A stretch of DNA of 64,000 nt from Mimachlamys varia (lineage: Eukaryota > Mollusca > Bivalvia > Pectinida > Pectinidae), in assembly GCA_947623455.1 (NCBI GenBank), contig OX392538.1:27341001-27405000 (forward strand), given 5' to 3'. The position numbers were made by a program, and so were the translations under genes. The notes beneath the pieces are model-generated. The model worked only from the letters and a program-made list of their open reading frames with translations. It did no database searches and was not told where the DNA came from. This document shows positions 19,401 through 64,000 of the stretch, in pieces (the stretch's first letter is position 1; each line of letters starts with the position of its first letter).

Positions 19401-22400
19401 CGTTCTCTTCGACAAAGAGCTTCAAGCTGTTTACTTGTCGAGATAGATACAACATCTTGGCTCCCTCAAGTTCCTCTTTATCTGGATCGTCACATGAGCT
19501 AAGTGGTCGGAAATATTTGTTGGTTATTGCACACACAATCTTGATGTAGTCCCCGATATAAGGCACCTGGTTCGTAGGAAGGGTGTGATCCAAGTATTTC
19601 CAACTTTTAATCCTTGCATTGGAGGACTCCACAACCCATCTCACCTACAAGATATATTTTATCTGAATGATGTCCATCAAATAAAGCAAAGCAAACACTT
19701 TATATTCAATGATGCATATATATATAATTATACTTGTTCTATGATATATATATATATATAATTAACTTGGAAGAAACAGGGTACGTACCTATCCTTTAAG
19801 GTTTATTTTCTACATTATACTGTTTTTAAATGTCAGTTCATTCCTGGAATTACATTATATCAAAGAAAATGTTGGGTTTTTTTTATTGTTTTTATAAGAA
19901 GTTTTTGATAATCATAGAAGACTGATATGGCAATAAAGAGTTCGCAGTGAATTCATATAGACAGTAACTCACCTTTGTGACCAATCTGCTCATGTTCGCA
20001 TCCTCAGTTGACATCTGTTTCTGTCCCTTCACCAGAAAACGTGGCATTTCTGCTTTGATTCCCAGGTCCTCCAGAAGTGAAATGGAATCCCTAAATCCCC
20101 TGTCCACAATGAAAATGTCATCCTCCTTTATCCAAGACCGGATGTCTTCAACATTGGTCTTAAGAATGTGGTTCAAAATTGACGCATCATTGTTCTTTGA
20201 ATCAGCCAAGTATGGTCCTAAAATGGAAATGTAATAACCACTTGTTGTGACGATTACCATTGGTTTCACTAGGGGCCTCCCTTTATGCATACTGTAAGAC
20301 CGTCGCTGGAAATGGAAGTTGTTGCTTTTATCAATAAATATATATGTGCCATCTAGCACAAGTATAACTTCTTGCTGTCCAACAGTTCCAAACAAAGTCT
20401 GTGCAAGTGGCCGTGTATGATTCTTAATGACCTCCTCGCGCGAGACATGACCAAACCCTAGATTATCAGGGACAAACTTTTTCATCAATGCTTTCCTTAC
20501 AGTTGATATGGCCCGACGAATACTTGCCTTTGAAACATTAAAGAGAGTTGCCAAAAACTTGTTTGACATTCCGGATTTCATCTTACATAGGAATACTGCT
20601 ACTGTTGTTCGCTGACTCCTTGCAGGAGTGTTTCTAATATCATCTTTCACAGTACCACATATGTCTTTAAAGTTCTCTTTGTCAAATCCAGTAAGCGAGG
20701 TATAATCAGCTTCTGATAATGAGTGGTCGTCATCAAAGTCTAGACGTGTATGCTGGTGTTTCTGGCATATAGCTCGCATTCGCTGTAACATATCCAATAC
20801 TGCTGTCCGGTTAAGAAAAGCATGATCAGCTGTCTTCAAATTCTTTATGGAATCCAATTCAAGAACACCATCTTTAAGATGACCTGGGCAACATCTGGTG
20901 CCTGCTGGTATCAGGATGTTGTGGCGAACGAAGACTGATGTCCGGCACTGAGATGGAACAACTATTAATTTTGGCCCGGGTCGCTTGCAGAATGAACAAT
21001 ATGCATGCGACTTAGATGTTGACTGGATTGGCAGATTAATTGAAGGCGGACTTGATGGCAGATACTTTTTCTGTGTTGGAGGATAAACGTTGTCTGTGTT
21101 GCCCTCAACTGGTGTTGTTTTCGGACGCCTATTCTCTTTATATCTATGTCTACATGTATTACAAATGATGTCGTTGTCTGCACTGTTGATTAGAAATGAT
21201 TTCTTCAAAAATTTCCTAAGTTCCTTTGTGACATTACGCCTCTCCTGCGGCTTTGTCCGTTTTGAACATAAGACACATTGGAATCGTCTTGGGATAGCAC
21301 CAGGCATTCTGCAGAAAAAAATGTATAAAAAAATACTCAGGAAAGTGTCTTGATATTAACATTATAGTGTTCGCTGATTCTTTAGGAATAAGTGTATCAC
21401 CATTAACTTGTTTTAAATACATGCTATTATATTGTGACCAAGACACTAGAAGAGTCTATTAATTAATACTCATTGCATTCAGTTCTTGATTAAGTTTTCT
21501 ATCTAAGATACACCTGAAGGCCATCGCAATGGTATTCGAGCTAAAGAAAAAATATTACGAAATTAACGTCTGATAAAGATGTTGTTTAAAATTGCATAAG
21601 AAAATATATTTGTTGATTGTACATTGTATGCATGTTCTGAAGGAAATAGGTTTCGATAAGGGAGAAAATAAAAGAAAAAAAAAGCACACTGCCTCAACCG
21701 AGAATCGATCTCGGGACCATGCGCATGAAAGTCTAATGCGTTAACCGCTACACCAGGGTGCAGAAACTTTTACATATTCCTGATTAAATTGCCCCTCGCA
21801 ATGTATCGCTTGTTTTTGTGACTTTTTCCCCGATTTATTTTCATCAAAATAATTCTCAATAGTTGGAAATGTAATAATAAAGAACTGTCAATGAAAATAT
21901 AATGGAAGAATTGCGCTAAACAAAAGTAATGAGTACGATCACAGACTCGCTATGTCACGTCAAGTGTCATATTCGGCCTTCGGTATCGCTAGAATAAACA
22001 GATGTTTTATCAAACTTTACAGCCTATTTTTGCATATCAAGTAAATGTATATTACTTTGAAGAGTATAACAATATGTAACCTTCATTAGACAAAACATTA
22101 TTCGATATAAACACGTGTACCATGACCATAAACAAAAGTCACATTTCGGGACGAGTTGTCCATCGTTCTTTGACAGATGACGGATCGATAGGCCAGGAGG
22201 ATTATAGGGTTCTTACCTGTGAATGATTACGACTCCAAACTTGTCGTAAATATCAACTATGGTGACTCTTCTTCATCTTCTTTATCCGTTTTGAACCATC
22301 ATACTAGGAGATTTACGTCAAAGGCAAACTGTATAGTGCTTGTAAATATGCAATGTTGTGAACAGCGCACTACAGTAGGCCTAAGCTTAGATCTAAGATC

Positions 22401-24964
22401 TATTAAGCTTATACTGCCGCACTCGAAAAAAAAATGATCCCGCAAAAATTAGCAAAAAATAACAGAACAATTAACATTTAGATTCTAGGTCTTAATAAAT
22501 CTTTGATTTATACAATTTTGGTTAAAAAAATAATATAATTTTTTCCCTGTCGCAAGTGTCCATTTCGAAACTGACATGGCAGGTTTACCGACCGGAAAAT
22601 GGACGTTTTTCAACCTGAAACTTGCAAACATTTACGAATTATCATATGGCACCATACCTCGCCCAAAAAACAAATTATATGACTGAATTGCAAAATGTTT
22701 ATTCTTTCTTTTGCAATATTTTTTTTTGTGGGCGAAGCATGGTGCCAATGTTAATTTTAGTAAAATATCTTGAAATTTGTTGTGAATTCAAGTCAAAATG
22801 CGTAACCATGGTGATTAATGACATGCGCAAAAAGAAAATACACTTTCTAAAACAAGAAATATTTAAGAATATTGTATCTTATATATATTCAAAGAAATTT
22901 ATACTAGTTATTTTGTTCTAAAATGTTTTTGAAAATTTCATAAAAACAGGGCCAAAAAGGGCTATTCGTGAATCTACTCCTTTACTATCATAATGTCATT
23001 TTGTGCAAAATTATTTTACAGATTTGTCAGCTTTTATATTAATTTTCCTTACATTTCCATGTTAATTTTAGTTACCGATTGGCCCCGGAACACGTCTTTC
23101 CAATACCATTTGACGATTGCTTAAAAGCTTCAAAATATTTCATGGTCAACGCTGAGAAATTCGGGGTGGATGCCAGTCGGATCGCTTTAACAGGTAATTG
23201 TCCCTTCAATGTTTAAGAACAGTAAATACCAACCGATTAATTTAGAAAAGTATTAATATTCATACATCATAGAATACAAAATAGTTAATCATTGAAATAA
23301 AAATCCAAGCACATTAATAATATTTCTTTTATTCTATATAGATGGTTATAACATATAATGTGTCCTCCGTCAAAATACATATATAAAAAAGTATACATTC
23401 ATTTGGTCGAGGAGATCCCATAGACTGTTTATTTGAAGCAAATATTATGTCATAAAATGACTTGCAATATGCGTACACATTTTAGCGATATTATGAAATA
23501 TTTAAAAATTCTAAAACTTTCATTCGTCGTTTACAAGTTAGACGTTTATGGAGTATTTTATTTCTCCTTAAAATAAGCAGTCAATGCTAAAATTCATCGC
23601 AAAATCTAATAAAGAATATGTCCTCCTGCAGATTTCTAGTACAATGAACCAAATGTTTTATTTTGAAACATACAAAAATATCTCTAAAACTTCCTTCGAT
23701 ATCCTGAGCTAAGATAACAATGGCGTGTTGATATGACGTCATCACTTTGTCATGTTCAGTCCTAGAGTGTTAACGGTTTGATAATAAATTCGAGAATACC
23801 GAAGCGTTAATAAAATGATAATCCTAACTCAAAATCGATTAAACTAGAGTGGCAATATAGAAACAAAAGAAAGATTTACATGGAGACTCTCGTAAAAGCA
23901 CAAGAGAATAAGACCAGGTGTTCCGGAAAATTGAGAATACTGCAGTGCGAACAAAACCATACTATGAACTCAAAATCAGTCAAGAAGGGACAAAATATGA
24001 ACGAAATGGATCTATTTACATGGCGGCGCTTGTAAAAGTAAAAGAGAATTAGACCAGGTGTTCCGGAATAGTAAGCGTCTTCTGCTTCATCGACGACACC
24101 CACCATGTAAATATTTGTAACATCCAAGTAAAATAGTTTCTAAAATGAGAAAATCACAACAAGTAAACACACTAATGAGCATACTCAAAACCTCAATATT
24201 TCATATCACTTAAAGATACAGGATATTTCTCAATGAGACAAAGACCATAAATCTAATCTATTATGTGATACGTGTTTCAAAGTTGTTCTTTTGTTAATAC
24301 CACAAACTTTCCTATTTATTTGGTAATAGGTGATAGTGCAGGAGGAAACCTAGCGATGGCTGTTGGAACTAAGCTAACTAAGGAAAGACAACCCCCTCGA
24401 CTACTTGGGCTGATATACCCAGCTCTACAGATGGTGGACTTCAACACCCCGTCATACGTTTCCTATCAGTCGCTTCCATTTATACTACAGAAAAACAGGA
24501 TGGTCAGTTTTTTCTTAACATATGCATTTGGCAACGATAATGACATAGAGAAGTATATGGAGAACAGGCACGTATCGGAAACCCTGAAACGTGCTACGGA
24601 GATGAAGGTCAGTGTGAATTTACTACCGGAAAAATATCGAAAGATTTCTGCTGGGAAACAAACCCCTGTACATACAACATTGGCTCTGAAAGTCGAGAAA
24701 ACAATAACCAATGTATACCTTTGTCCTCTCCTGCTTGATGACGATGAACTGTTTGAATTACCTAAAACCTACTTGATGACTTGTGAATATGACCCTTTGC
24801 GAGATGATGGTCTTATGCTAGCCAGGCGATGGAAAGATATGAACTTCCCTGTGACACATAAACACTGGGACGGTGTACAGCACGGCTTCTTCCATGAGGG
24901 CGGTACCAACGTTACAAAGGAAGCTGTGGACGACTTCATTGGGTACCTCAGAATAGAACTGTAA
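13412..24964 (+). CDS. AADAC: Arylacetamide deacetylase-like esterase, copy 2 (6 coding exons, 398 aa)
   Basis: Exons: 13412-13561, 14899-15000, 15327-15450, 16905-16968, 23072-23193, 24330-24964. Phases match copy 1 and the frame is uninterrupted. Exon 2 is two codons shorter than in the other copies. Catalytic elements are HGGGW at 116-120, Ser190 in GDSAGG, Asp342 in CEYDPLRDDG and His372 in WDGVQHGFF, with the same membrane anchor (MACGGIRCLLFLAVCFVAIA). An N-x-T sequon at N381 corresponds to N383 of copy 1. Residues after the DYRLAPE motif differ from the other copies (HVFPIPFDD rather than YPFPVPFED). Intron 4 is expanded to about 6.1 kb by a full-length DNA transposon on the opposite strand. 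The splice sites on both sides are intact, so the gene may still be expressed. Family role as in copy 1. Confidence 0.92.
15722..15840 (-). repeat. Decayed hammerhead-repeat fragment (intron 3, copy 2)
   Basis: On the minus strand it carries GGACGAAACAGCTGTGTGATGC and then the family tail up to GTTACGTCATCTT. The 5' half of the ribozyme core is lost and the cleavage-site residue is G, so it should be inactive. Confidence 0.6.
17245..17461 (+). repeat. Subterminal TAGCAAC motif cluster in the transposon
   Basis: TAGCAAC occurs at 17245, 17257, 17435 and 17455, just inside the left TIR. Short subterminal repeats of this kind often bind transposases; that role is inferred. Confidence 0.35.
18528..18573. 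repeat. Poly-C/poly-G inverted repeat
   Basis: ATATG followed by 13 C, a short AT-rich spacer, then about 13-14 G followed by CATA. It can form a G:C hairpin of about 16-17 bp, or quadruplex/i-motif structures. It lies inside the transposon, downstream of the transposase stop. Confidence 0.6.
18916..21307 (-). CDS. DDE transposase with C-terminal SWIM zinc finger (2 exons, 687 aa)
   Basis: Exon 1 is 21307-19973 and exon 2 is 19644-18916. The donor is AAG|GTGAGT and the acceptor TTGTAG|GTGAGA, phase 0. Domains in order: a zinc-binding-like N terminus with C11xxC14 and C49xxC52; a second cluster, C104xxC107 with C139/C140 and H143; a helix-turn-helix around 247-274 (SNKFLATLFNVSKASIRRAI); and a DDE_Tnp_4-type (IS5/PIF-Harbinger-like) catalytic core with Asp319 (LDGTYIFID), Asp402 (IFIVDRGF) and Glu451 (RWVVESSNARIKSW). 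A SWIM finger, C621-x-C623 ... C633-x-H635, follows. The exon junction falls between the second Asp and the Glu, so splicing is required for a full triad. Role: cut-and-paste mobilisation of the surrounding element in the nucleus. Exact superfamily is uncertain. A 3' splice site-like CTGCAG lies just before the ATG, so a 5' UTR intron is possible. Confidence 0.88.
21691..21761 (-). other. tRNA-like sequence inside the transposon
   Basis: On the minus strand, TGGTGTAGCGGTTAACGC resembles a tRNA D-arm/box A. CCGAG-ATCGATT-CTCGG is a perfect 5-bp T-stem with 7-nt loop containing box B-like text. A CGCAT/ATGCG stem lies between. The acceptor stem does not pair, the anticodon loop is nonstandard (9 nt), and a T-run follows. 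It is best called a tRNA-derived pseudogene or SINE head. Confidence 0.5.
22646..22749. repeat. Nested fold-back near the right TIR
   Basis: The outer arms ATGGCACCATACCTCGCCC (22646) and GGGCGAAGCATGGTGCCAAT (22730) pair with a few mismatches. Inside, TTGCAAAA pairs with TTTTGCAA. Possibly an inserted mini-element or a subterminal structure. Confidence 0.5.
23876..24125 (-). repeat. Interspersed repeat with TTTACATGG / CCATGTAAA ends
   Basis: The word series CCATGTAAAT ... GACGACACCCACC, AGAAGACGC-like, GTGTTCCGGAA and AAAAGTAAAAGAGAAT recurs at about 3765-3840, 14270-14360, 26319-26470 (opposite orientation), 31590-31760 and 50646-50810. The clearest copy, 26319-26416, is bounded by ATTTACATGGCG and CGCCATGTAAAT. 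Class unknown; possibly a MITE. Confidence 0.55.
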
Positions 24965-26416: not shown

Positions 26417-27821
26417 CGTTCACTTTGTTCATTTTTTGTCCCTGATTTTGAGCTCGGAGTATAGTTCACACTTCAGTATGCTCTATTTTATTTTCAACAA
26501 GATGCCTAAATGATTTACGGTCAACTGAGAAACGTTGTAGACACTTTCTGGGTAGTTCATTACATTGAGATGTGTTGAGGAGTCAATTTGAATGCAAAAT
26601 GAATGCAATACGTGTCATGTCACTAAATGATAAAAACTTATGAAAATATAATATTTTGCTATAGCGGATGTTGGTCATTACGTAGGAATTATTTCCTCCT
26701 GAAAATGGACAAACTAAACCCAACTTCACGATTTCAGCTATAAAAAAACGGATGGATAAGGGGTGCTGAATCGTCCTCCAGGTACTACAGCCGATTCAAG
26801 TACAAGAAGATAATCAGGGGCATTGTTAAAATTTTAAATTTCGGAACCCAAGGCCATTTGTTATCCTAGTATATAGATGAAGAGGGTGTAAAATTACTTT
26901 TAATTTATATTTTGTCCATCATTATGTGATTCCTACTTGGTGAGGTTCATGTTTATTAGTAATATGAATTATTTGAATAGTCTTTAAATCTTGTATCCTA
27001 AGGTAACATGACAGGTATAGTATTTCACTTTGTTTACACGTTGATTTCATAATGACATCTTAATGGAATTGAGGTGCCAGGATAACATTACTCTGGTGAC
27101 CGCTTAGTCTACTGTTATAATGATAAACCATTAGCGTTACATGATAATTAAAGACGGTATCACACTTCAATTTAATAATTGAAAAGAACAAATTAAATTT
27201 TAAAAAAAGCATTTGTGCCCTAGTATATTTATGTAAATTAGAAAAAAACTAAAGACACAATAAGCAATATCAAAACAAAAGCACAAGTGTGAAATCGTCA
27301 CAATGAAAATGGCAACACAGCAAAAAAGTATGACATCACAGACTTGGATCAAGATCCCTCAAAAACACCGGAAGTGAATTGAGAGTTTCGGAAGCGTCTA
27401 ACTCCCCACAAGTACACACTGTGATGTCTTTATGCTTAGTCAAGGATATTGGTACTCTATGTCACCAACATCAACATGAACAATTATTGCAAAAAAAATA
27501 TATATATATTAATGTCTTTAAAATGTTCTACATTGTACAATTAGCACGCACCGCCGGCAACATGTGAAATCTAAGCATTCAAGTTTCTAGCAGATTGCAC
27601 CTTAACGTGAGCACATGTACCTCTGATGTATTTGGTTTACTGTAAACAAACATTTTGTGTGTATTTAATGAAGATTTTACGTAAAGATACCATGTAGGCG
27701 TACTGTTGACTATAGCCTTGTAATGGAATAAGTACCAACCGGTTTATTTGAGTTTCACAGGGGCTGCCTTATAGTTAACCTTTTTGTATATTTTTTTCAA
27801 AGGAATATAAGCCTAACACAC

Positions 27822-27985
27822 AGAGTTGCTGCATCTTTTTAATTTAGTATCAGATACATATGCCGGAAAAATAATTACACTGCATCATACAGCTGTTCGT
27901 CCTCCAGGACTCGTCGGTGACACTAGGAGCAAACAAATGGAAATCGATTTTTTTAACTGTTGTAGAAGCAGAATCAAATTATCAT
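27822..27985 (-). repeat. Hammerhead-repeat copy upstream of copy 3
   Basis: Minus-strand ribozyme motif at 27882-27923: CCGACGA, then GTCC...GGAC, then GAACAGCTGTA, then TGATGC. It has lost one A of GAAA and a C3/U4 base, so it is predicted inactive. The paralogous position upstream of copy 4 is 37758-37945. Confidence 0.65.
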
Positions 27986-29311: not shown

Positions 29312-32300
29312 ATGGTTGCATCTTGTTTGATATTCCTTGCCGTATGTGTTGCTGGCGTAGCCTACGTCCTATACACAGCTTTCCCGGAGGATGCCGTAGA
29401 ACCCCACAAACAGCTGGCTGCATCTCTTACGCTTACTGCAATTTTCAAACTGGTGAGTGAAATAATAATTGCCTTTTTCTTTTTCATTCTATCATATTAA
29501 ATAAACATCTGCATGAAAATCCTAAAGAATATGTAACTAGTAGGAAAGTGATTATTCTGGGATATTTATGGTTATTGAATTATCAATGACCTAACAGGGT
29601 AACATGACGTCATGTTTGTTATTCGATGACAATAGATAGAGAAATCCATTGTCATCGATTTAACTGGCAATGGTTATCTATTGGTAAAGGTATTGCTGTC
29701 GAAATGAATGGAGTGTCGCACTGGGGGCACGAGTGTTTAGAGATAAATGTCTTTTGGCTGGGGATTTCATTTGTCAAACATAATTTGACCTACTGAGCTT
29801 CTAATGACCATGGCAAGAATAAACGTTTTGATTGTGAGGTAATTGTTTGGAATGTATTATGTTTTTAATGTCAATTACAATAATAAATAGTATAGTATAT
29901 GTAGTGAAATGGTAAGACCCTTTGTGACAAGGTGACAAGGGAATACTCTACTAAAGACAATAGAATGAGTAACAATCATTTGTCAACAATCATGAGTAAC
30001 AATGGTTTTGTTTTATATTAATTATATTTGTGATATATTTATCTATAATTTCGATTGCCCCGTTCAGTCGGGATGCCAATGTTATATTCCTTAAGATGAC
30101 GTAGTACACACATATGCTGCTCCTTTTAAATCAAATTAATCGAACGTTTTGATATGTATCCGTCTAATTTGTAAACAGAATCGTGATTCACACACGTATT
30201 CACACCGCTAAGACTGTACATAGTGGTGTGTTTGCTCATGCGGTAAAACACGGTACGCAATGTGTGCCCGCTCATGCGGTAAAACAATATATGATATGCA
30301 TGTTGTATCATTGGATGTTATGAGCAACATTAAATGCGTTTTTTAAAGAAGAACAAAAAAAATTCGAGAAACGATATGAACATGTATGCATTGAAGTATA
30401 TTTCTATATACTCATTATAACCAAATGTACAGTAGGTCACGTATTTTTTGTTTCAACACAGCGGGATCTTTGTGTGTGAATATATGATCCAAACATGAAG
30501 AATACACAGTTCCGATTTCAATACTTCATGACCTCACCGAGAGGTCAATATATCGTTCTGCCAGGTCCGTGGAATGTTGTTTGATTCCTCAGTGTAGTTT
30601 AGCCACAACAAACTCAAAACATTAGTCAAAAGTAATCTAATGCTGGTATCTCCGGTATTTTATTTTTCAAATATAACAAATAACTACAATCAAAATGTAT
30701 AATTATACGTGAGTACAATGTTACACTTATTCTTTATTTCAGTTCCTGTCGATTAAATTGTTGAAATTTATTTCTGTTTTTTTTTTATTATTATCATTAT
30801 TGTAATGGAAAATGAGTAAAAATTATAACATGTTATGTAATGTTATGTCATTCTTCGCATGAATTTTAGTTCTTGTCGATTAAATTGTTGAAATTTATTT
30901 CTGTTTTTTTTTATTATTATCATTATTGTAATGAAAAATCAGTAAAATTCATAATATGCTGTATATTGTATTGTATAATATTTTATCATCACGTTCAGCA
31001 GTGGTAATCCCCCATAGTAATTATATTGCCTGAGGTGTCTCAGAACTATACTTTCTGATGCAAATGTTAAATTTTCCAATACCATTTAAAGTTAATACAA
31101 TGGAACAGTGGAACCGAGGTGTTCCTGCATCGTAAGTTGCTAGGCATCAAAATGCTGTTAACGGAAATCCGAATTTAATATGATAATAAAGCACATCCGG
31201 ACGAGCGTTTTTAACAATATTTGACTGTTCTCATTTCAGTGTGATTTCCAAGAGTATATTGGGTATAAAACATTTGCCAAATGTGTCAGGGATCCGTTCA
31301 ACCTTACCCCTGTGTCAAACAATGGAGTGTCGGATGACAAAGTACAGGTAAATATATTAAAGGTAGATGTAAACATTTCATGTTCGTGATAATATTTAAT
31401 ATACAAAAGAAAACAAATCGAACTCTAATCAGGAAAATCAGAGAATTAAGTCTTTTTGTGTGCGATCATGAATAGCTGAGAACATGTGCATGCGTGCGTG
31501 CGTGCGTGTGTAACAGAGACATACAAAGGTCAAACCAGTATTCGACACCCTTTAAACTCCAAAAAAATTCTGTGATGCAAGTCCTAATACAAATAAATTA
31601 GAGAATACCGAAGCGTTAACAAAATCGTAATCCAAACTCAAAATTGATTAAATCAGGGGCAAAATATGAACAAAGGAAAGGATACATGGAGACCCTTGTA
31701 AAAGTATAGAATAAGAACAGGTGTTCCGTAGTGAACAAAGTTAGATGAAGCGGAGTATCAAACATTCCTCTGACAAATACAGGATAATGTTGTAACCATA
31801 ACAACTTGATACCTAAAATGTACGTCACCGATAATTACACAAACGTCAAGGTCAAAACTTATATCACGACTTCACGAAGGGAATGACGAGAACAACAGGT
31901 CGTTTACAACCTATTCCACTGCCATATTTTGTTGGATTTGAAAAACAACACCTTTGTAAAATGATATATATGCAGGTACTTCCAACCGGACATAATCATT
32001 GTTATAGAGACATTGTTCAGTCACAGCTATCGTCCTACAACTAATTTGCTCTACCTTTATACCAAATTGTATAATAATGATATAGCATATTGATATATTA
32101 ATTTTTTCAACTTTATTAGTAGTTTCCCCGCAACACGCATCGTACTAAAGATTTCAAACTTTTCGTCATATTGATATTATCAATAACGAATCTATACCCA
32201 AATCTAAATCATAAAGACAACGTTATATTAGATAATAAAAACGTACCAATAAACAAATCGTACTCTTTGAATGGTTCAATTTGAGGTTTTAGATAAAGAT

Positions 32301-34974
32301 AGGGATAATGTAATATAAACATTTGTTTAAAACATGATCTTCTATCCAGGTCAGCGAAGAGTTGTTTGACGGTGTTAAAGTGAGGCTATATGTACCACGT
32401 GATCAAAATGGAAAACGCCCTCTACCGGGGATAATTTATATCCATGGAGGAGGCTGGATAGTGGGATCACCAGGTAAGAATGGAAGACAACTTTCAAATT
32501 TGATTTTATTCAAACACTGATCTATTTCAGTTAACATAAATAAATAATATGATTTTATCGATGATAAAGTCACCAATCATTCTTAAGTACTCAAGTTTTA
32601 AAGTACAGTATTATGTTATGTCAAATATATTGCATTGCACTTAATAAAGATAAATATAATTTGTGTGTTATATAAGTTATGCCCATACGTGTATTATTTC
32701 TTTTACTCGAGGAAATTTGTATTTTAAAATACTTAGAGGCATAATTAAAAGCATTCATTTCAGTTTTAGTCACACATGATTTACCATTGCTAGGTGCCAA
32801 AAGGTGGAAATCGAAATGTTCTAAACTACTGAATAAGCAGAATAGTTACAGTTTGTAAAGGTGCGTAAATCGCCCTGCATTAGAAATGAGATTAATACTA
32901 TGTTGTTTATCTGAATTTTGTATTTCAATTATATTACAGACCAGTATGATGGACTTACCAGGAAGCTAGCCGCGTCCTTGTCAGCAGTTGTTGCCTCTGT
33001 CGAGTAACTTCCTCGTATTAATATTTTAATCACAAATAATTGTTCCTTATCAATTAAGATCAATGATTTAATTATATTCCGTTTTAGTGACCTACAGGGT
33101 GGTTTGTGAAGTTCTGCTAAAATTTGAATTTGACTGCCCTTGCTTTTTTCTCTCTCTCTCTCTTTAAATTGTATATTTGTTGTTTTTTTACATTAACTGT
33201 CCTCAAATTTTATTTTAATTCTAGCTACAGATTGGCACCGGAATACCCCTTTCCTGTACCATTGGAAGACTGCTTAAAAGCCACAAAATATTTCATGACA
33301 AACACCAAGAAATTCGGAGTGGATGCCAGTCGGATCGCTGTGGCAGGTAATTGTCAATACAATGCTACAGAAATACAGCTAGCAAGTTACTGGTGCTAAT
33401 TATTCAGTTTATTACAGCATAGGAAACACTGTAATTATTCAATGAAATAGAAAATCTCCATCACAAAGTTGATTGATCATTTATTCAAAATAGATGGTAA
33501 TAAAACATATTACATGTATGTCTTCTGTCATAGATGCGTTTAACAAAATAATAAATAATTAAAATTTTTGCGCTGTTCCCCAAAAATGTTCGTTTACATG
33601 CAAGCTTATTATATACATATAGTTTGAACGGTGATGCATCTCGTTTTACTAAAAAAAAAATTAGAATGACTCCGCTCTACAAACAAGCAATCTGTCAAAG
33701 TTCACTCCACTAGTGAATAGCCTAATAAAATATCAGTACAGTGAAATTTATGTCTAAAGAAAGTGTCAGTTGTCACCCTCAACACGAACAATTATTGCAA
33801 AAATGTATATATATATATACATGTATTTAAAACGTTCTACATTTTACAAGTAGCACGCACCGCAGGCAACATGTGAAATATGAGCATTCAAGTTTCTAGT
33901 AGATTGCAATGAGTTCCATACATACATATAAAAGTGACAATTTGTCACCATCAGTATTAATTTATTGATGAAACTTAGTTCGTATTCATAATACTTCACT
34001 TTATCAAGTTTGCAACTACCAATTAATATTCTTTATATTATTCAGATAATAAAACAATAATTTTCACATTACCGGATGACATGACAAGTTGTCCAACATC
34101 GTGAAACATATCAACATACATGAGCAGAATCTGTACACGTCATAGTTTTGTCTGTGATACATGCTTCACAATATCACCTGTGTGTATACCATCTTCTTTC
34201 ATGAAATATTTTTTTTAAAAAGCGCCTGAAAAAATACTTGCTCGTACAGCACACTTCGATAAATGTTTTTTTCTGTGACTGGTGTTTTAAAATATTGCTT
34301 GTGTGAATACCACAGAATTTTCTATTTATTTGGTAATAGGCGATAGTGCAGGAGGAAACCTGGCGATGGCTGTTGGAACTAAGCTAACTAAGGAAAGACA
34401 ACCCCCTCGACTCCTTGGGCTGATATACCCAGCTCTACAGATGGTGGACTTCAACACTCCGTCATACGTTTCCTATCAGTCGCTGCCATTTATACTACAG
34501 AAACATAGAATGGTCAGTGCGTACCTCTTGTATGCATTTGGCAGTGATAATGGTCTAGATAAGTACTTGAAAAACCAGCATGTATCAGAAGTCATGAAAC
34601 GTGCTACTAAAACTAAAGTAAGTGTGGATTTGCTACCAGAAAAATATCGAAAGGATCCTATTGAAAACAATGCAGTTATGGATATAAATTTGGCACTTAA
34701 AACCGAGAAAACAATTACCGATATATATCTCTGTCCTCTCCTTCTTCATGACAGTGCCCTGAAAGCATTACCAAAAGCTTACTTGATGACTTGTGAATAT
34801 GATCCTTTGCGTGATGATGGTCTTATGCTAGCCAGACGATGGAAAGATATAAACTTCCCTGTGACACATAAACACTGGGACGGAGTACAGCACGGCTTTT
34901 TCCATGAGGGCAATTCAAAACGTTCATGGGAAGCTGTGGACGACTTCATTAGGTACCTCAGAGCGGAACTGTAA
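29312..34974 (+). CDS. AADAC: Arylacetamide deacetylase-like esterase, copy 3 (6 coding exons, 397 aa)
   Basis: Exons: 29312-29452, 31240-31347, 32350-32473, 32940-33003, 33225-33346, 34340-34974, with canonical borders and 1194 bp in total. Exon 1 is three codons shorter than in copies 1 and 2 and begins MVASCLIFLAVCVAGVAYVL, a hydrophobic anchor. The catalytic set is complete: HGGGW at 115-119, Ser189 in GDSAGG, Asp341 in CEYDPLRDDG and His371 in WDGVQHGFF. The N-x-T site near the C terminus in copies 1 and 2 is NSK here, so that glycosylation site is absent. The segment after the Ser motif (YLLYAFGSDNGLDKYLKNQH and onward) is close to copy 4 and clearly different from copies 1 and 2, which supports a copy 3/copy 4 sister relation. 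Exon 5 reads on into intron 5 as an open frame, but the GT donor at 33347 and the GDSAGG exon show where the real junction is. Confidence 0.93.
30743..30955 (+). repeat. Two-copy tandem duplication in intron 1 of copy 3
   Basis: GTCGATTAAATTGTTGAAAT, TTATTTCTG and TTATTATTATCATTATTGTA recur in order with a period of about 130 bp. Confidence 0.75.
32795..32880 (-). repeat. Hammerhead-repeat body fragment (intron 3, copy 3)
   Basis: Contains GTGCCAAAAGGTGGAAATCG and AGGTGCGTAAA, the ribozyme-upstream part of the family on the minus strand, without the ribozyme. It is orthologous in position to 45125-45335 in copy 4, so this insertion predates that duplication. Confidence 0.55.
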
Positions 34975-35439
34975 TATATTTCATAGTTGTTATTAATTAC
35001 GCTTTGATTCCATGTCTTACAGGGCTTTCTGCTTGCAAAGGTTTACAAATGAGGTATGGTAAGAATGTTGATCTGGGCAAACGACGTCAATACTCAAAAC
35101 AATCGCGTCAGTTCTTAATGTATATTGTTTTTTGTTGTTTTTTTTTTTTTTGTTGGGGGGGGGGGGGGTGTTTTGCTTCAGATATTGTCCGTCGTGTAAT
35201 GTAATGGTCATATCATTGCAAATTATGTTTTTCTGTCTGCTATTACATAATTTTGAAATTATGCAAATCTGCCTATCTTTTGCTTTGTTTTGCTTTGTTT
35301 TGTTTGTTTGTTTGTTTGTTTTTTTTTGCTTTTTGTTGTTTTCATCATGGTGAAAACAATGTGGGATTGAACATTGAACATAATTAAGTTTAAGCATAAT
35401 ACCGGATTTCATGAACAGCCTTTGTTGGGATATATAAAG

Positions 35440-35575
35440 AAGACGTATCACACACACACACGCATGCTGCACCTTTTAAATAGTAACAGATACAGTATGT
35501 CGAAAAAGTGAATTAAAATGAATCATATAGGTGGTTTGTCTTTCAAGGACTCGTCAGTGATGCTAGAGGTTGTAA
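35440..35575 (-). repeat. Decayed hammerhead-repeat copy after copy 3
   Basis: The minus-strand motif at 35521-35563 has GCATCA and CTGACGA intact. Stem II is weakened and the stem III palindrome is lost (CCACCTAT), so it is inactive by inspection. Confidence 0.6.
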
Positions 35576-35725: not shown

Positions 35726-36056
35726 AACCTACACAAATAACAAGCGATTTCCCTTCTGTTTTTAGTTTATAATTCTGATGTTGATTTTTGATATGTTTAA
35801 ACGTCGTGTGTCAAAATGTATTTTAGCAGTTCGAAACACAAAATGAATAAAAGTTCTTGTTTTTATATACATATATCTATTGTTACGATAAAACTACATA
35901 CACTACATGTCATCAATTGACGAACAGCCATATGGGACAGGGAATAGAATATGACGTTTTGTTAATTTTTCTTTTAATGTAATTTTATGTTTATATTCTT
36001 TTTTGTCTCGATGAGGGCCACACACAGACTTTCTTATTTCTATGAATAGAAGGTTT

Positions 36057-36350
36057 ACGTAACACACACATATGCTGCACCTTTTGATTAAGTAAAAGAT
36101 GCAGTATGCGAATGTTTAGTCCCTCTAGGCCAAAAAGAGGTAATCAAAATGGTCCAAATTAATGTAGAAGTACAAAGGTCAGGTGCGTAAAACCCCTTTA
36201 TCTTACATGTAACTTATTCTTTGTAAATATTTGATTTTTAAAAGATGAGAATCAAATTTTTTTAAACTAATGTAGAAGTAGAGGGGTCAGGTGCCTAAAA
36301 CCCTTTATCTTAACTTTTTCCTTTTTAAATATTTGATCTTTATTCCTAGT
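36057..36350 (-). repeat. Hammerhead-repeat fragment with the ribozyme deleted
   Basis: It starts with the family end (TACGTAACACACACATATGC) and contains two tandem versions of GGGTCAGGTGC-TAAAACCC. The ribozyme section is missing. Confidence 0.55.
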
Positions 36351-37757: not shown

Positions 37758-37945
37758 TTAACACACACACGTGCTGTCCTTTCCATTTTAGTAATAGACA
37801 CATAAGGCAAAATGGTAAAAAACACTGCAAGATACATCTGTTTCGTCCTGCTAGGACTCGTCAGTGATGCTAGTGGCCAAAAGGTGGAAATCGATTTTTT
37901 TAAACTTCTGTAGAAGCAAAAGGTTCAGGTCCGTAATACCCCTTT
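37758..37945 (-). repeat. Hammerhead-repeat copy upstream of copy 4
   Basis: The minus-strand motif at 37827-37870 has GCATCA, CTGACGA, GTCC-TAGCA-GGAC and GAA intact. Stem III is ACAGATGT (one change breaks the palindrome) and the 3' strand of stem I is TCTTGC, so self-cleavage is doubtful. The core is otherwise the best CTGACGA version in the window. Confidence 0.7.
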
Positions 37946-38044
37946 AATAACATTATTGCGAAGAAGTAATTTTAATGTATTTACATGATTGTACACTTTA
38001 GTTATAAGCTTACTATGAATCCGCTGCGTATATAGCATTGTTTT

Positions 38045-44900: not shown

Positions 44901-47186
44901 ATGTTATTGAATACACATTGTATTGCACTCAATATATATAACAAAACATTTACCATATTACATGTAATTGAGTTTTTCACACACATTTTTTTTTCTTTTT
45001 TTCGAGAACTTATTGGTTTTAGTGTCCTTTAAGACATATTCAAAATTATTTATTTCAGTTTTAGTGTAACACGAATAACTATTGTCTTATAATCAATAGC
45101 ACAATTATAGCCATTATAAAAATGAACTTTGCACAAACACATGTGCTGTACTTTTTAATAGAGTTATAGGTACAGTTTATGGAAAATAATCAATTGCACT
45201 GCAGCAGCTGTTTCGTCATTCTAGGGTTCGTCAGTGATGCTAGGGGCCAAAAGGTGGGAATCGAAATGTTCTAAACTGCTGTATAAGCAGAATGGTTACA
45301 GTCTTTGTAGGTGTGTAAAACCTCCTCCATTAGACATGAGAATTAGATAAATACTATGTTGTTAATCTGAATCTTATATTTCAATTATATTACAGACAAC
45401 TATGATGGACTCACCAGGAAGCTTGCCACGTCCCTGTCAGCAGTCGTTGCCTCTGTCGAGTAAAGTCCTCGTTATCAATATTTTTATCACAAGTAATTGT
45501 TCGTAATCAATTAAGACAAATGATTGAATTATATTCCGTTTTAGTGATATCCAGGATGGTTTAATTTATGCTAAAACTTATGTCCTTGTTATTTTTCTCT
45601 CTTTTTTAATTTAATTTTTTTCCCATCGCTATCCTCAAATTTTATTTTAATTTTAGCTACCGATTGGCACCGGAATACCCCTTCCCTGTACCATTTGAAG
45701 ACTGCTTAAAAGCCACAAAATATTTCATGGCAAACACCAAGAAATTCGGAGTGGATGCGAGTCGGATCGCTGTGACAGGTAATTGTCAATATAATGTTAC
45801 AGAAATATAGCTAGCAAGTTACTGGGAACTAATTATTCAGTTAATTACATCATATTTAATTTCATCATATAAAAAAATTATTATTCAGTGAATGAAAAAA
45901 CTTTTCATTACAAATTAAATCTTTAATAGATTCGTCTAACACATTAGTATATTATGTTATATGTATGTATTATTTCCCAAACAAATATACGTGCAAGCTT
46001 ATATAGTAAATACACTGACGTATCTCGTTTTGACAATAATCCAGGTTTCAGAATAACTCCACTCACCAAGCATGCAACCTGCCAACGTTCATTCCACAAG
46101 TGATTAGCGTAATAAGATATCAAAGATGGTACAATTAATTTAATTTCTAAATAAAGTAGCAGTTGTCACCATCAATATCAACAATGAGAAAAGTCAAATA
46201 GCAATTTGTGTAACCGCACTGTAACAACATTTGCTATACCATTCAATAAATACTTCTTATATTATTTATATAACACGTAATTCTCACATTACAAGTTGTC
46301 CACCCTCGTTAGACACATCAACATACATTAGCAGAATTCGTGAATCCTGAAAACAATAAGTTGGTTCTATTTATAGTTTTGTCTGTGATACGTTCTATGA
46401 AAAGGGGTTTGCACCATATCATTTATGAAAAACAAATCTGTAATAAACCCCCTAAAACACATACTTTAATAAACTTAATCAATTCTGTGATATGTGATTC
46501 GAATAATTACTGATGTCAATACTACATAATTTCCTATTTATTTTGCTAAAGGTGATAGTGCAGGAGGAAACCTAGCAATGGCTGTTGGAACCAAGCTAAC
46601 TAAGGAAAGACAACCCCCTCGACTCCTTGGGCTGATATACCCCGCTCTACAGATGGTGGACTTCAACACTCCGTCATACATTAAATATCAGTCGCTGCCA
46701 TTTATACTACAGAAACACAGAATGGCCAGCGCGTACCTATTGTATGCATTTGGCAACGATAATGGCTTAGATAGGTACCTGGAAAACCAGCATGTGTCTG
46801 AAGCCATGAAACGTGCTACGAAAACTAAAGTAAGTGTGGATTTGCTACCTGAAAAATATCGAAAGGATCCTGTTAAGAACAATGCAGTTGTGGATACAAA
46901 TTTGGCACTTAAAGTCGAGAAAGTTATGAACAATAAATATTTTTGCCCTCTCCTGCTTGATGACGATGAACTGCATGAACTACCTAAAACCTACTTGATG
47001 ACTTGTGAATATGACGTTTTGCGAGATGACGGTTTTATGCTAGCAAGGCGATGGAAGGATATGTCCTTCCCTGTCACTCACGTACACTGGGACGGGGTAC
47101 AGCACGGTTTCTTCAGTGGAGGGAATTCTAAACGAGCAGAGGAGGCTGTTAACGACTTTATAAAGTATCTCAAAGCAGAATTATAA
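38937..47186 (+). CDS. AADAC: Arylacetamide deacetylase-like esterase, copy 4, with HGGC oxyanion motif (6 coding exons, 397 aa)
   Basis: Exons: 38937-39077, 42944-43051, 44562-44685, 45396-45459, 45657-45778, 46552-47186; the frame is open throughout. Anchor MAASCFIFLAVCVAGLAYVL. Ser189 (GDSAGG), Asp341 (CEYDVLRDDG, the form typical of vertebrate AADAC) and His371 (WDGVQHGFF) are present. The oxyanion motif at 115-118 is HGGC: codon TGC at 44668-44670 where the other copies have GGC. In this family backbone NH groups of the glycine loop stabilise the tetrahedral intermediate, so activity could be altered; that is an inference. Intron 1 is 3.9 kb and carries a 34-bp minisatellite array. The exon 6 acceptor is an unusual AAAG, but it is in the expected position. 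It has no paralogue downstream within the window. Confidence 0.91.
40029..40048 (+). repeat. (GCGT)n microsatellite
   Basis: Five GTGC/GCGT units in intron 1 of copy 4. A shorter run at about 31494-31508 is in intron 2 of copy 3. Confidence 0.8.
40701..41757. repeat. 34-bp minisatellite, about 31 copies, with palindromic units
   Basis: The unit includes TACTACAATTGTAGTA (a perfect 16-bp palindrome), TATCACACTGTA and TACATGTAC. Two sites vary between units, TATAC/TAAAC and CAATTG/CAGTTG. Roughly the first seven units and the last one carry more changes than the central units, as expected if the array is homogenised by unequal exchange. There are no spacers, so it is not a CRISPR. It lies in intron 1 of esterase copy 4. 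Confidence 0.95.
41766..42010 (+). repeat. Two-copy imperfect tandem duplication, about 125-bp period
   Basis: TTATTATGACG-CAT, GACTACGT, and ATGGCTTT-AATCAATCGCTTAGAT followed by GATTTA occur twice. It adjoins the minisatellite and contains TGACGTCA. Confidence 0.65.
42543..42692. mobile_element. Small MITE, CTGTAAACCAACT family, copy A
   Basis: The left end CTGTAAACCAACTCATTCTC and the right end, ending GTAAGTTGATTTACA, form imperfect TIRs about 150 bp apart. It shares ends and interior words (GCGAAAATTAAT) with 47931-48174. Confidence 0.6.
44020..44110 (+). repeat. Intronic segment duplicated at 44765-44850
   Basis: ATTGTTCAACATGTTCA, CACAGCTATCGTCCTACAAA and TTTGCTCTACCTTTATGA are found in intron 2 (here) and again in intron 3 (44765-44850) of copy 4. 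A single version is present in intron 2 of copy 3 (about 31985-32075). So one copy moved across exon 3 after the copy 3/4 duplication. Confidence 0.65.
45125..45335 (-). repeat. Decayed hammerhead-repeat copy (intron 3, copy 4)
   Basis: The minus-strand motif at 45197-45240 keeps GCATCA, CTGACGA and GACGAAACAGCTG. The outer part of stem II and the 3' strand of stem I are altered. Confidence 0.6.
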
Positions 47187-47246: not shown

Positions 47247-47525
47247 ATACAATTTTGATTGGGGGAGGTGGTACAGATACTTCTCTAATCCCGAAAGCTA
47301 GAACTGTCATAAGTAGGATAACGAATACCCTCTGTTGTTATTGATAGTATATATATATATATCATTTAATGACCTGGACACTGTGGACAAAAAACTAAAA
47401 CTGGAACTCGTGCTAGCTAGTTGGCGTTTCAGTTTACTTTATAAAAGTGTTACTCCTTTAGAAGGTTGAAATATTGAACAATATCGCCGATGCAGAGCCA
47501 CAAGATATATTTGTTATTCAAGTGA

Positions 47526-47830
47526 GAAGACGTAACACACACATATGATGCATCTTTTAAATTTAGTAATAGATACAGTATGCCGAAAAAATGAATTTAA
47601 CTGCACCATACAGCTGTTTCGTCTTCCTTGGACTCTTCAGTGATGCTAGGGGCCAAAAGGTGGGAATCCAAAATTTCTAAACAATTGTAGAACCAGAAGG
47701 GTCAGGTGCGTAAAACCCCTTTAATTTATGAATTTAAAAGTAAAATTTAACTAAATCTGTACTACGAAAATGTGTATATTATGTACCGTGCCACTACTCA
47801 TTTGAGATTAACTATGGCTATGGAGAGTTT
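47526..47830 (-). repeat. Nearly complete single-ribozyme copy of the hammerhead repeat
   Basis: The minus strand is colinear with about 62770-63086. It has the body (GGGTTTTACGCACCTGAC), then the ribozyme at 47603-47646 (GCATCA, CTGAAGA, GTCC...AGAC, GAA, ACAGCTGT, A, TGGTGC), then the tail to GTTACGTCTTCT. One stem II pair is lost; the remaining core is canonical. It lies 340 bp after the copy 4 stop. Confidence 0.75.
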
Positions 47831-60780: not shown

Positions 60781-62560
60781 TTATCTCGGCAAGACAACTA
60801 AGATGTGACTACGATGCAGACGTATATTCAATAAAGGGAGTCCCAGATTTTGGATCCCGGATGGGAGTTAGAGGACAACACAAGGTCAACACTGCAGTTA
60901 GGATGCAGTTTGATATTACCTAGTGTATATGTGCTTTTAATAAACTGCTTATGAACATCTTTAAATAAACATGCATATTAGCAAGAGTAACGAGTATGGA
61001 GCGTTTTAGATATTTCTTAATAAAATGCAGATCCCATTGTCGCTCTGTTACTCGTAGTAGTAGAGATGATGTAACACATACATGCTGTACCTTTTAAATT
61101 TAGTAATAGATACCGTATGCACATGGAATTGGGATAAGGATATGTATTCTAATAAGAATGGGTTTTGACACCTTAGGTATCACATTATAAAGATTGTGAC
61201 ACACAACGTTGATACTACGAGATAATATTACTGTACGTATATGATGTTTTTTACCTATTTTAATAAAACTTAAATTAACATCTATAAATAAACGAGCAAA
61301 AATGTGGTTTAGATCCATCTGATTAAAATGCAGGTCATATTGTCGATCCCTTACCCTCTGTATACACAGCTATTAGAAAGAAAATAAGGATTTGCATTTT
61401 AATAAGATTGGATCAGGTTGCACCGCGTGCATAAAATTGTAAAACTTGCGACCTAAAACATTGAAGATGGCGTAACACACACTTGTGCTGTTACGAGTTA
61501 ATATAACTGTACGTAGAAGAAGTTTTTTACCTATTATATTTGTGCTTGCAACAGGACAATTTCCTAACGTTTTGAAATAAACATAACCATTACCAGAGAC
61601 ATATCTAAATACATATCTGTAAGTCTCTGCTCTTACCAAGTACATTGATGTACAATAAGTATTCGGACAAATAATAGTTCTACTATATATTTCATGCATT
61701 TCGACAAATTGTCAATTAATTTTCACGACCGTAGACGATTTCAAAAGATATTGCACATTACCGTTTTATATTTACATTCGGCTGCAACCCACTCTATGAA
61801 CATTACCAGCAAAAATGCCTTTCATAAAAGTATGAAAGCAATGGTTCTCGAGACGTAGCACGTGGTTTCATTATGACGTCATAGATCAAGCTTGTTCAAT
61901 GAGTCTTCTCGCGCCGCCTCGAATAACATGGAGAATGCCCTTGCGTCAAACGCTCACATGGCTTTGGCGTCAATTTTATTTAAGCTGGGCTGTTCCGCCC
62001 AAGTCGTTTAAATGACGAAACATATACAAACGGAATTAATAAACTATTTATTGGAAAAAATATAAATGGGGTTGAGCAATTGTTACATAGCAATGGTGGA
62101 ATTACGTAAGAATGAAGAAGAAAACGTTGTCACACGTTGCTCACAAAAATGTAAATAACATATAATCGTGTATTTATTTTAGAAAAATTAATCGCTGGAA
62201 TTGTCTGTTGTAAATATCAGATGAAAGACTTTTAAAAAATGTGCATTAGTGTATCGAATTTCAAGAAAATCAATCGAAAGACGATGTCAAGAATATGCAT
62301 TGAACATAATATACATAACAAAAATATATTTCCGAATACTTATTGCACACCACTGTATTACGACCGCTTATGCCTGCTGTATTACAATAGTTCAATTAAT
62401 ATAAACGTATCAGGTAGCGATAATTATATATATATATAACTACTTTTTGATTGCATGTCTGTACCTTTGGCCGTTTAATACAATGAAGTGATGCTGACTC
62501 TATGTGCAATTGTCCACGTACGCGTTAAACTGTTCTGCCATATTTTTTACCTAATCTCTT
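60781..62560. other. Gene-free spacer with repeat fragments
   Basis: Contains short pieces of the hammerhead-repeat tail (about 61065-61115 and 61465-61490, without ribozyme). A block at about 61830-61910 matches 13925-14000 in inverted orientation (CTCGAGACGTAGCACGTGGT and AAGCTTGTTCAATGAG). No gene was seen. Confidence 0.5.
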
Positions 62561-62579
62561 CCGAAAGTTATCGTTCCTT

Positions 62580-62624
62580 GCACTCACTGAAGAGTCCTAG
62601 GAGGACGAAACAGCTGTATGATGC
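62580..62624 (+). ncRNA. Hammerhead ribozyme motif, left repeat
   Basis: Order: GCACTCA (stem I 5', with one extra base against the family's GCATCA), CTGAAGA (CUGANGA box), GTCC-TAGGA-GGAC (stem II), GAA, ACAGCTGT (palindromic stem III), A at 62618 as the cleavage-site residue, TGATGC (stem I 3'). All invariant core bases are present. Stem III has no loop, so folding needs a second copy. Confidence 0.75.
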
Positions 62625-62963
62625 AGTTTAATTCATGTTTTCGGCATACTTTTTCAATTACTAAATTAATAGGTGCAGCAAATGTGTGTGTTACGTCATC
62701 TTTAATTATAGGGGGTGGCAGACTCTGCTAGTGGATGTTTTAGTCCCCGAGGTTTGATGTAGCCTCCAAAGCCACAGTTAATCTCATCCGAGTAGTGGCA
62801 CGGTACATAATATACACATTTTCGTAGTACACTATTTGAAATTATACAGGACTAGTTTAATTTTACTTCTAAATTCATAAATTAAAGGGGTTTTACGCAC
62901 CTGACTGACCCTTCTGCTTCTACAATAATTTAGAAATTTTGGATACCAACTTTTTGGATTCAA

Positions 62964-63007
62964 GCATCACTGAAGAGTCCTAGGAGGACGAAACAGCTGT
63001 ATAGTGC
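62964..63007 (+). ncRNA. Hammerhead ribozyme motif, right repeat
   Basis: GCATCA, CTGAAGA, GTCC-TAGGA-GGAC, GAA, ACAGCTGT, A, TAGTGC. The core and stems II and III are perfect. Stem I has one mismatch and one wobble. Confidence 0.75.
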
Positions 63008-63086
63008 AGTTTAATTACTTTTTTTTCGACATAATATATCAATTACAAATTAAAATGGGTAGCATATGTGTGTGTTACGTCATCTT

Positions 63087-64000
63087 GCAAGTGATATCGA
63101 AATCAAGGAACGACAACTCTGGCTAGAGGTAGATTTAACATGGTGTGCAATGCAATGGGATTTAAATAGGACAGGCAGATATAAGATACGTATGCCAGAA
63201 ATGTACATCTACCTACTACAAATAATCATATATATATACATGTACATATTCATTCATTTTGAAATGACTGTTTGTATGTATGTATGTATGTATGTATATA
63301 CATTAAACATTATTATACCAATTTAAATGTGTTTTTGATAAGACAAAGACAAAACGTGTGAATTGCATAGTTTATATATCATTTGACAGTGTTAAGGCTC
63401 GACAAGACCCCTTAATGAAACAGTAAACATCCTCAACTATAACCCCTGAAATGAGTCCTATTCAAAGACCTCAATTCAAATCGGAACTTGAATGAAAAGA
63501 ATATAGTGTATTTGTACAATGGTTATTAAACAACTAAATTGCCAGTTTAAGATATATTAAAATCGAGTATCAGCGATGTTATCTTCATAACATCGCTCAT
63601 CAGAATTGTTACATATTGATCTCTTTTGCGACGCTACTGAGAACTCCGATATAACGTTTAATCAAAAGTTGTTTTTATATACCCAGGTCATGTGGAGCTT
63701 TCGATAGCTTTTGGTAGGGATGCCGCCCTCATATAGAGGTAGATGTTACCATGCAAAAGACTCGAATCAAAGTAAAATTAAATGGTAATATATTCAAATA
63801 AGCAGATCATAAAGAAAACAAATGCGAAGTACTAAGTAACCTTGATCGATAAATGTAGGTTGTATTTACGTTATTCAGAAAAAAATATACTTAATGCGGA
63901 CGGACGACTTGAGTATAAAAAATGAACTTCATAAAATGTCATTGCGTAAAATTCACTTATGTCAGCAACCTTGTCCTAGTTACTAGTTTGTATTACTGTA
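63087..64000. other. Gene-free right end with (TATG)n
   Basis: A TATG/GTAT microsatellite lies at about 63272-63298. The rest is AT-rich with no recognisable feature. Confidence 0.5.

Follow-up and report, generated by a model that had tools for sequence, protein, structure and literature searches.

The pair of hammerhead ribozymes at 62577-63086 very probably lies in a copy of a scallop family of non-autonomous, non-LTR retrozymes, whose members would be copied from a circular or uncut template beginning at a fixed site. Small ribozyme-bearing mobile elements of this kind are known from mussels and corals, and the locus by itself is an ordinary, partly decayed metazoan retrozyme in another host. 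From the sequence comparisons, what appears to be new is a set of arrays in related copies, in which hammerheads follow one another every 45 bp; we found no description of such arrays in the open-licence literature searched. Below, "the window" means the whole 64-kb stretch of DNA that was analyzed.

Two type I hammerheads bound a 383-nt unit

The features of the locus are as follows.

62577-63086, plus strand: probable tandem retrozyme copy, 5'-truncated unit 1 followed by complete unit 2 (direct repeats; profile matches at 62573-62701 and 62705-63085)
62581-62624, plus strand: first type I hammerhead (copy 1), with the predicted cut following A62618 (Rfam RF00163, 29.8 bits; descriptor)
62964-63007, plus strand: second type I hammerhead (copy 2), with the predicted cut following A63001 (Rfam RF00163, 27.1 bits; descriptor)
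62619-63001, plus strand: predicted 383-nt released RNA, circle or linear monomer (cleavage positions taken from the motif)
62703-63086, plus strand: full-length unit of 384 bp, in register with the common 3' end (TACGTCATCTT)

A sequence-only reading of the window had placed two direct repeats 383 bp apart in this region. Both are present, at 62584-62641 and 62967-63024 (91% identity, spacing 383), and the repetition continues at 62663-62702 and 63047-63086 (88% identity, spacing 384). That reading drew the element from 62580 to 63086; the 3' end is retained, but the homologous element starts at about 62577. Each hammerhead consists of CUGAAGA, stem II GUCC/GGAC, GAA, a short stem III (ACAGCUGU), the cleavage-site A (62618 in copy 1, 63001 in copy 2), and the second strand of stem I. 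The parts thus stand in the order and spacing that had been described, and both copies are matched by the Rfam Hammerhead_1 model.

A covariance search had been proposed as a check. In a search of 2.5 kb, Hammerhead_1 matched copy 1 with 29.8 bits (E 1e-4) and copy 2 with 27.1 bits (E 8e-4), but both scores lie below the gathering score of 34 bits, which is why a default Rfam scan of the window listed nothing. The model was matched over its full length with the motif opening at stem I, and the motif did not classify as type III. We also used a descriptor that requires the CUGANGA motif, a stem II with all 4 bp formed, GAA, and at least two pairs in stem III. It had three hits in the window, including both members of this pair, versus 0.013 per window in 300 dinucleotide shuffles.

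Stem I is perfect over 6 bp (GCATCA/TGATGC), as the sequence-only reading had it, but only when the 5' strand of copy 2 is combined with the 3' strand of copy 1. This combination is the ribozyme that forms when the two ends of the 383-nt unit are joined, and exactly the same ribozyme occurs at another locus (L018:2090-2133). Within each copy as transcribed, stem I is imperfect: copy 1 forms three of six pairs without a bulge, or eight with one bulged C, and copy 2 forms five of six. The closed 383-nt unit has a G+C content of 37%, and its longest ATG-initiated ORF around the circle is 37 amino acids. As judged from the motif, the locus would release a 383-nt RNA, which could then circularize.

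Both window units carry the CTGAAGAG/TAGGA type of ribozyme, and they are 82% identical. Unrelated copies are at least as close to each other, which speaks against a recent origin of the pair from one circle. We also considered a double compensatory change between the outer half-ribozymes of the pair, which would make it a mosaic of two units. The outer half-ribozymes do pair (8 bp plus a bulge, a value matched by 0.5% of random flanks). The mosaic was dropped because the copy 1 strand GCACTCA, which is the family GCATCA with an inserted C, pairs with its own 3' strand (8 bp plus a bulge). Between the two window units, the ribozyme core is conserved at 32 of 32 positions and the downstream sequence at 65 of 77 (p 0.012). 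Among the 28 pairs that can be formed from eight window copies, the core is better conserved than the downstream sequence in just five at nominal p<0.05, which argues against the retrozyme reading.

Inverted 25-bp sequences, 80% complementary, lie on both sides of the tandem element (62556-62580 and 63104-63128). We rejected them as terminal inverted repeats, as 49 of 5,000 random positions with the same spacing scored equally high. The left arm is probably in part element sequence.

Decayed single copies and genes in the rest of the window

A profile search of the 64-kb window gave ten further matches, all on the minus strand and mostly 5' truncated or decayed. The copies, including one from a second-round search, are listed here.

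47525-47827, minus strand: single 5'-truncated copy, hammerhead at 47603-47646 (27.9 bits)
37759-37978, minus strand: single 5'-truncated copy, hammerhead at 37827-37870 (25.7 bits)
45133-45330, minus strand: single copy, decayed hammerhead at 45210-45234
35438-35569, minus strand: single 5'-truncated copy, decayed hammerhead at 35533-35557
27812-27973, minus strand: single 5'-truncated copy, decayed hammerhead
15732-15833, minus strand: copy truncated within the hammerhead
36054-36306, minus strand: composite copy without hammerhead, upstream part doubled
32788-32890, minus strand: copy without hammerhead and 3' part, in surroundings paralogous to those of 45133-45330
61064-61120, minus strand: short 3' fragment
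61465-61491, minus strand: very short 3' fragment, weak match (second-round profile search, E 0.004)
30094-30135, minus strand: short 3' fragment

Most window copies hold one unit or less. Ahead of the fragments at 61064 and 61465 lies another common sequence (AGGTAAAAAAC..TACGTACAGT..ATATTA, 61010-61700, minus strand), perhaps a different repeat.

The window belongs to contig C12, in a genome of 975 Mb. A gene end at 24269-24961 shares 80% identity with an arylacetamide deacetylase-like protein from Mizuhopecten yessoensis, and the best 12 of its 94 listed matches come from Mizuhopecten, Pecten, Ylistrum, and Argopecten, which we take to be scallop genera. It is one of four similar arylacetamide deacetylase-like last exons that form a tandem cluster on the plus strand (8599-9273, 24269-24964, 34291-34974, and 46530-47186). 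An open frame of 487 amino acids at 19892-21355 (minus strand) resembles a transposase (DDE_Tnp_4, E 7e-7). ARAGORN found no tRNA-like gene in the window. Stop-to-stop ORFs with 120 or more amino acids number 13 in the window, and a Pfam scan of 6 of them found no reverse transcriptase.

Family copies share a 3' end and have ragged 5' ends

We built a family profile from nine units and counted 40 profile matches in the window and the fetched loci; internal matches within the L009 array were excluded, and the nine units themselves are among those matched. The family is dispersed and multicopy, with two matches also in 20 unselected 10-kb stretches (200 kb in total) versus 13 profile rows in the 64-kb window. 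Ribozyme scoring covered 73 of 133,848 first-look candidates. Among the 40 genome matches listed, 35 exceeded the Rfam cut-off, and the best reached 45 bits. The loci L001-L024 were picked by best ribozyme score and are an unfair sample of 5' ends and of ribozyme quality; a few of these loci also contributed units to the profile.

In 30 of the 40 profile matches, the 3' end falls within 15 nt of a single position, whereas the 5' starts scatter from position 2 to 321 of 380. The defined 3' end lies at CATCTT, with the tail GTGTGTTACGTCATCTT. The matches that end elsewhere are those of L014 and L020 (17 and 23 nt short), unit 2 of L016, one of L017, two of L021 (one at the edge of the stretch), two of L023, and window matches 32788 and 36240. 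At six tandem loci (the window, L016, L019, L020, L021, and L022), unit 2 starts at the end of unit 1 or a few bases past it; of these, L019 and L020 may represent a duplicated locus. At three tandem loci, the paired units are no more alike than unrelated copies.

Target-site duplications were not apparent. Over 17 insertions, the mean longest word shared by the two flanks was 4.41, versus 4.60 with shuffled pairing; the best single words were CAACTAC (L019) and CTTGCA (window). The ten window insertions likewise showed no excess. No relatives were found in viral contigs, in prokaryote genome contigs (searched with one exact 22-base pattern), or in phage records, as expected for an animal element. 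Two dispersed hammerheads (L013:1478-1521; L023:1213-1256, minus strand) have a G at the cleavage position. A G there should block cleavage.

Folding and covariation give limited signals

The closed unit is about as stable as its shuffles (circular fold z -1.0; 60% paired in both), which argues against the retrozyme reading. The minimum-energy fold of the circle includes a hammerhead-like arm. A double-hammerhead fold was computed at -36.3 kcal/mol versus twice -15.1 kcal/mol, and in such a model the helix III palindrome ACAGCUGU should favor paired cleavage by two hammerheads.

The compensatory changes in stems I and II that had been proposed as a check appeared weakly. Among seven window copies there was no covariation in either stem. 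Among 37 distinct hammerheads of the genome, the outermost stem I pair occurs as A-U (14), G-C (14), or G-U (4) or is unpaired (5), and its covariation score and number of doubly changed cells were reached by none of 500 shuffles. It is the one pair with a double change, and that count was reached by 368 of the 500 shuffles. Because the change follows subfamily, it counts as few events. For stem II, compensation was seen at one pair in one array, described below.

Related copies carry back-to-back 45-bp hammerhead arrays

Several of the 40 listed genome matches are spaced 45 bp or multiples thereof. The unit of these arrays is 45 bp long and consists of a complete hammerhead and a one-base linker. 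A pattern for the joint between neighbors (CGAAACANNTGTAN8CATCACTGA) had 290 exact matches in the genome, and a reversed control had none. The 100 joints listed of these 290 (contigs C1 to C8) fall into 18 loci, eleven of which have one or two exact joints only. With a spacer one base shorter, the pattern had one genome match, a 44-bp joint in L045. The arrays are at the following places.

L009:2183-3036: array of 19 units (tandem-repeat finder, 19.0 copies)
L010:1854-2200: array of 7 units (7.8 copies)
L011:1810-2572, minus strand: array of 17 units (17.0 copies)
L045:1340-1565: array
L046-L051: further arrays

The longest evenly spaced chains of these ten arrays total 143 units, with 5 to 23 per array; the chains of L011 and L047 are interrupted by units of other length, so that the counts for these two are lower bounds. 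CUGANGA is kept in 123 of the 143 units, and both core parts are kept in 113 by a loose test. A stricter test, which asks for the core, full stems II and III, and at least five of six stem I pairs, was passed by 15 of 19 units in L009, 4 of 7 in L010, 10 of 17 in L011, 19 of 22 in L046, 11 of 17 in L047 (where 46-nt units upset the register of the test), 18 of 21 in L048, 2 of 12 in L049, 6 of 18 in L050, and 3 of 11 in L051. By eye, from their flanks, nine of the ten arrays belong to a second retrozyme subfamily and L009 belongs to that of the window. The arrays seem to have grown inside a single-ribozyme element, since several (e.g., L045 and L049) start with its ordinary left strand and end with its ordinary right strand. 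Near the array of L009 is a separate 25-bp tandem repeat with 47 copies (L009:11-1221).

In nine arrays (all but L047), changes relative to the consensus of the respective array number 37/1380 in the core; the figures for stems I, II, and III are 107/1656, 53/1104, and 18/552, and those for loops II and III are 58/690 and 26/552. Loop II changes roughly three times as often as the core, with a nominal Fisher p of 2e-8 that is too small because the units share ancestry. Five distinct units of L049 have C-G at the second pair of stem II, a position at which 98 of the 117 units counted have U-A; both one-sided intermediates are present. The fourth pair of stem II is lost in L049, with G-G in eight.

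No report of back-to-back hammerhead arrays or of scallop hammerheads was recognized among the literature matches listed.

Discussion

In the mechanism that we propose, the mobile unit would be a 384-bp ORF-less sequence with one type I hammerhead, represented at the window locus by a 5'-truncated unit and then a complete one. The unit would be transcribed, and its RNA would be cleaved and closed. Reverse transcription would begin at a defined position, roughly 85 nt 3' of the cleavage site, and would often stop early. We infer this start and these stops because the copies have a common 3' end and ragged 5' ends, a pattern that reflects fixed-start, early-stopping reverse transcription in LINEs and SINEs. 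The template would be circular, or uncut at the cleavage site, because the copies run unbroken through that site. The enzyme is assumed to be supplied by a LINE or a Penelope-like element. In related copies, the ribozyme would have been expanded to 5 to 23 back-to-back 45-bp hammerheads, most likely by local duplication of DNA.

The same ends could be produced by a SINE-like element, in which a linear transcript has a defined 3' end (CATCTT) and the hammerhead is a passenger or a regulator. Read-through transcription, or the insertion of a second copy at the tail of the first, would then account for the head-to-tail pairs. Such an element fits the single 3' end with ragged 5' ends, the predominance of window copies with one unit or less, and the paired units that are no closer to each other than to unrelated copies at each of three tandem loci. 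We nevertheless consider it unlikely. The ribozyme is kept in many dispersed copies, albeit in a list chosen by ribozyme score, and the same tandem joint recurs in the window, L016, L019/L020, L021, and L022. The absence of a tRNA-like gene from the ARAGORN scan of the window also counts against it, as do the mussel relatives that were shown to be circular (PMC7229834). The locus might instead be the remnant of a Penelope-like element's pseudo-LTR, with no separate non-autonomous element, given that tandem type I hammerheads occur in those structures too (PMC7761336). We regard this as highly improbable: the 383 nt between the two ribozymes contain no ORF, complete 384-bp units are repeated elsewhere, no reverse transcriptase was seen among the 6 of 13 longer window ORFs that were scanned, and the helix III, which has two pairs and a tetraloop, sets the unit apart from the minimal Penelope ribozymes described in PMC7761336. 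A chance resemblance to a hammerhead would be compatible with the scores of both copies below the Rfam cut-off, but it has practically no standing against the descriptor counts in real and shuffled windows (3 versus 0.013) and against family members with up to 45 bits in the same genome.

The retrozyme reading is further favored by comparison with known systems. The non-LTR retrozymes of Mytilus galloprovincialis are repeats of 350 to 390 bp with type I hammerheads (Cervera and de la Pena 2020, PMC7229834), and according to the same source, self-cleaved axolotl and mussel monomers were closed by RtcB in vitro and circles are abundant in tissue. Like them, the scallop family has an ORF-less type I unit (383 nt), low G+C content, and tandem copies, and its helix III has the two pairs and tetraloop described there for invertebrates. 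The earlier identification of ORF-less tandem hammerheads as a retrozyme therefore holds in unit length, G+C content, ribozyme type, helix III, and layout. Hammerheads number thousands in the mussel genome (PMC7229834) and are many in that of the scallop. The scallop family differs in its common 3' and ragged 5' ends, for which we noticed no report in the passages of PMC7229834 consulted, and in the 45-bp arrays of its relatives. Further, most published retrozyme circles are highly self-paired, whereas the closed scallop unit pairs like its shuffles. Other points that count against the retrozyme reading are the sub-threshold Rfam scores and imperfect stem I of both window ribozymes, the missing covariation among the seven window copies, and insertions with no apparent target-site duplications.

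More distant systems share parts of this layout. Plant LTR retrozymes are also non-autonomous and ORF-less, with two hammerheads bounding a unit-length RNA, but they are described as bearing type III hammerheads and LTRs, together with a primer-binding site and target duplications of 4 bp (PMC7229834, PMC7761336), whereas the scallop ribozyme is type I. No LTR, primer-binding site, or polypurine tract was noticed in the scallop unit. Penelope-like elements and Terminons have tandem type I hammerheads that may cleave as pairs; they are autonomous, encode a reverse transcriptase, and have ribozymes without much of helix III (PMC7761336), unlike the ORF-less scallop unit. The satellite-like repeats of newt and axolotl are tandem type I hammerheads with a weak helix III that work as dimers, in units of 330 to 350 bp (PMC7229834), whereas the scallop array units of 45 bp are almost only ribozyme. 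Bacterial tandem hammerhead clusters likewise place more than one hammerhead in a transcript, but those described by Perreault et al. (2011, PMC3088659) lie in bacterial gene contexts, in constructs of about 2 kb with no back-to-back repeat.

The arrays themselves are probably plain DNA minisatellites that grew by slippage or unequal exchange in hairpin-prone sequence, with ribozyme activity uninvolved. Array-specific variants (TGGTGAA in L046, the stem II changes in L049, and TGGTATA in L009), slightly higher identity within arrays than between them (0.921 versus 0.889), and the several arrays that open with the left strand and close with the right strand of an ordinary single-ribozyme element point in this direction. 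The excess of changes in loop II over the core (58/690 versus 37/1380) and the compensatory changes in two stem pairs do not, and they suggest that the ribozyme structure was kept for at least part of the history of the arrays. Alternatively, the arrays might be working ribozyme satellites, whose transcripts would be diced to 45-nt RNAs, each almost purely a hammerhead, that close into minimal circles or act as pairs; rolling reverse transcription of the circles would lengthen the arrays. A single bare ribozyme would then be the replicating unit. Such satellites, which we consider unlikely, would be compatible with the like junctions in two subfamilies, with the better conservation of the core, and with the compensatory changes in the stems: against them, the array-specific variants are what DNA slippage would produce, and a 45-nt diced RNA should not be copied as a longer, array-bearing element. 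Minisatellite growth is the likelier origin, and it is compatible with the retrozyme reading of the window locus.

Taken alone, the window locus is one more retrozyme, in a scallop. The common 3' boundary and ragged 5' ends of its family suggest a start site of reverse transcription, and this bears on how retrozymes move. The arrays, with up to 23 hammerheads separated by a one-base linker, would be unusually dense natural self-cleaving RNAs if transcribed. They raise the question of whether an element with twenty self-cleaving sites can be copied through RNA or whether the arrays grow in DNA only.
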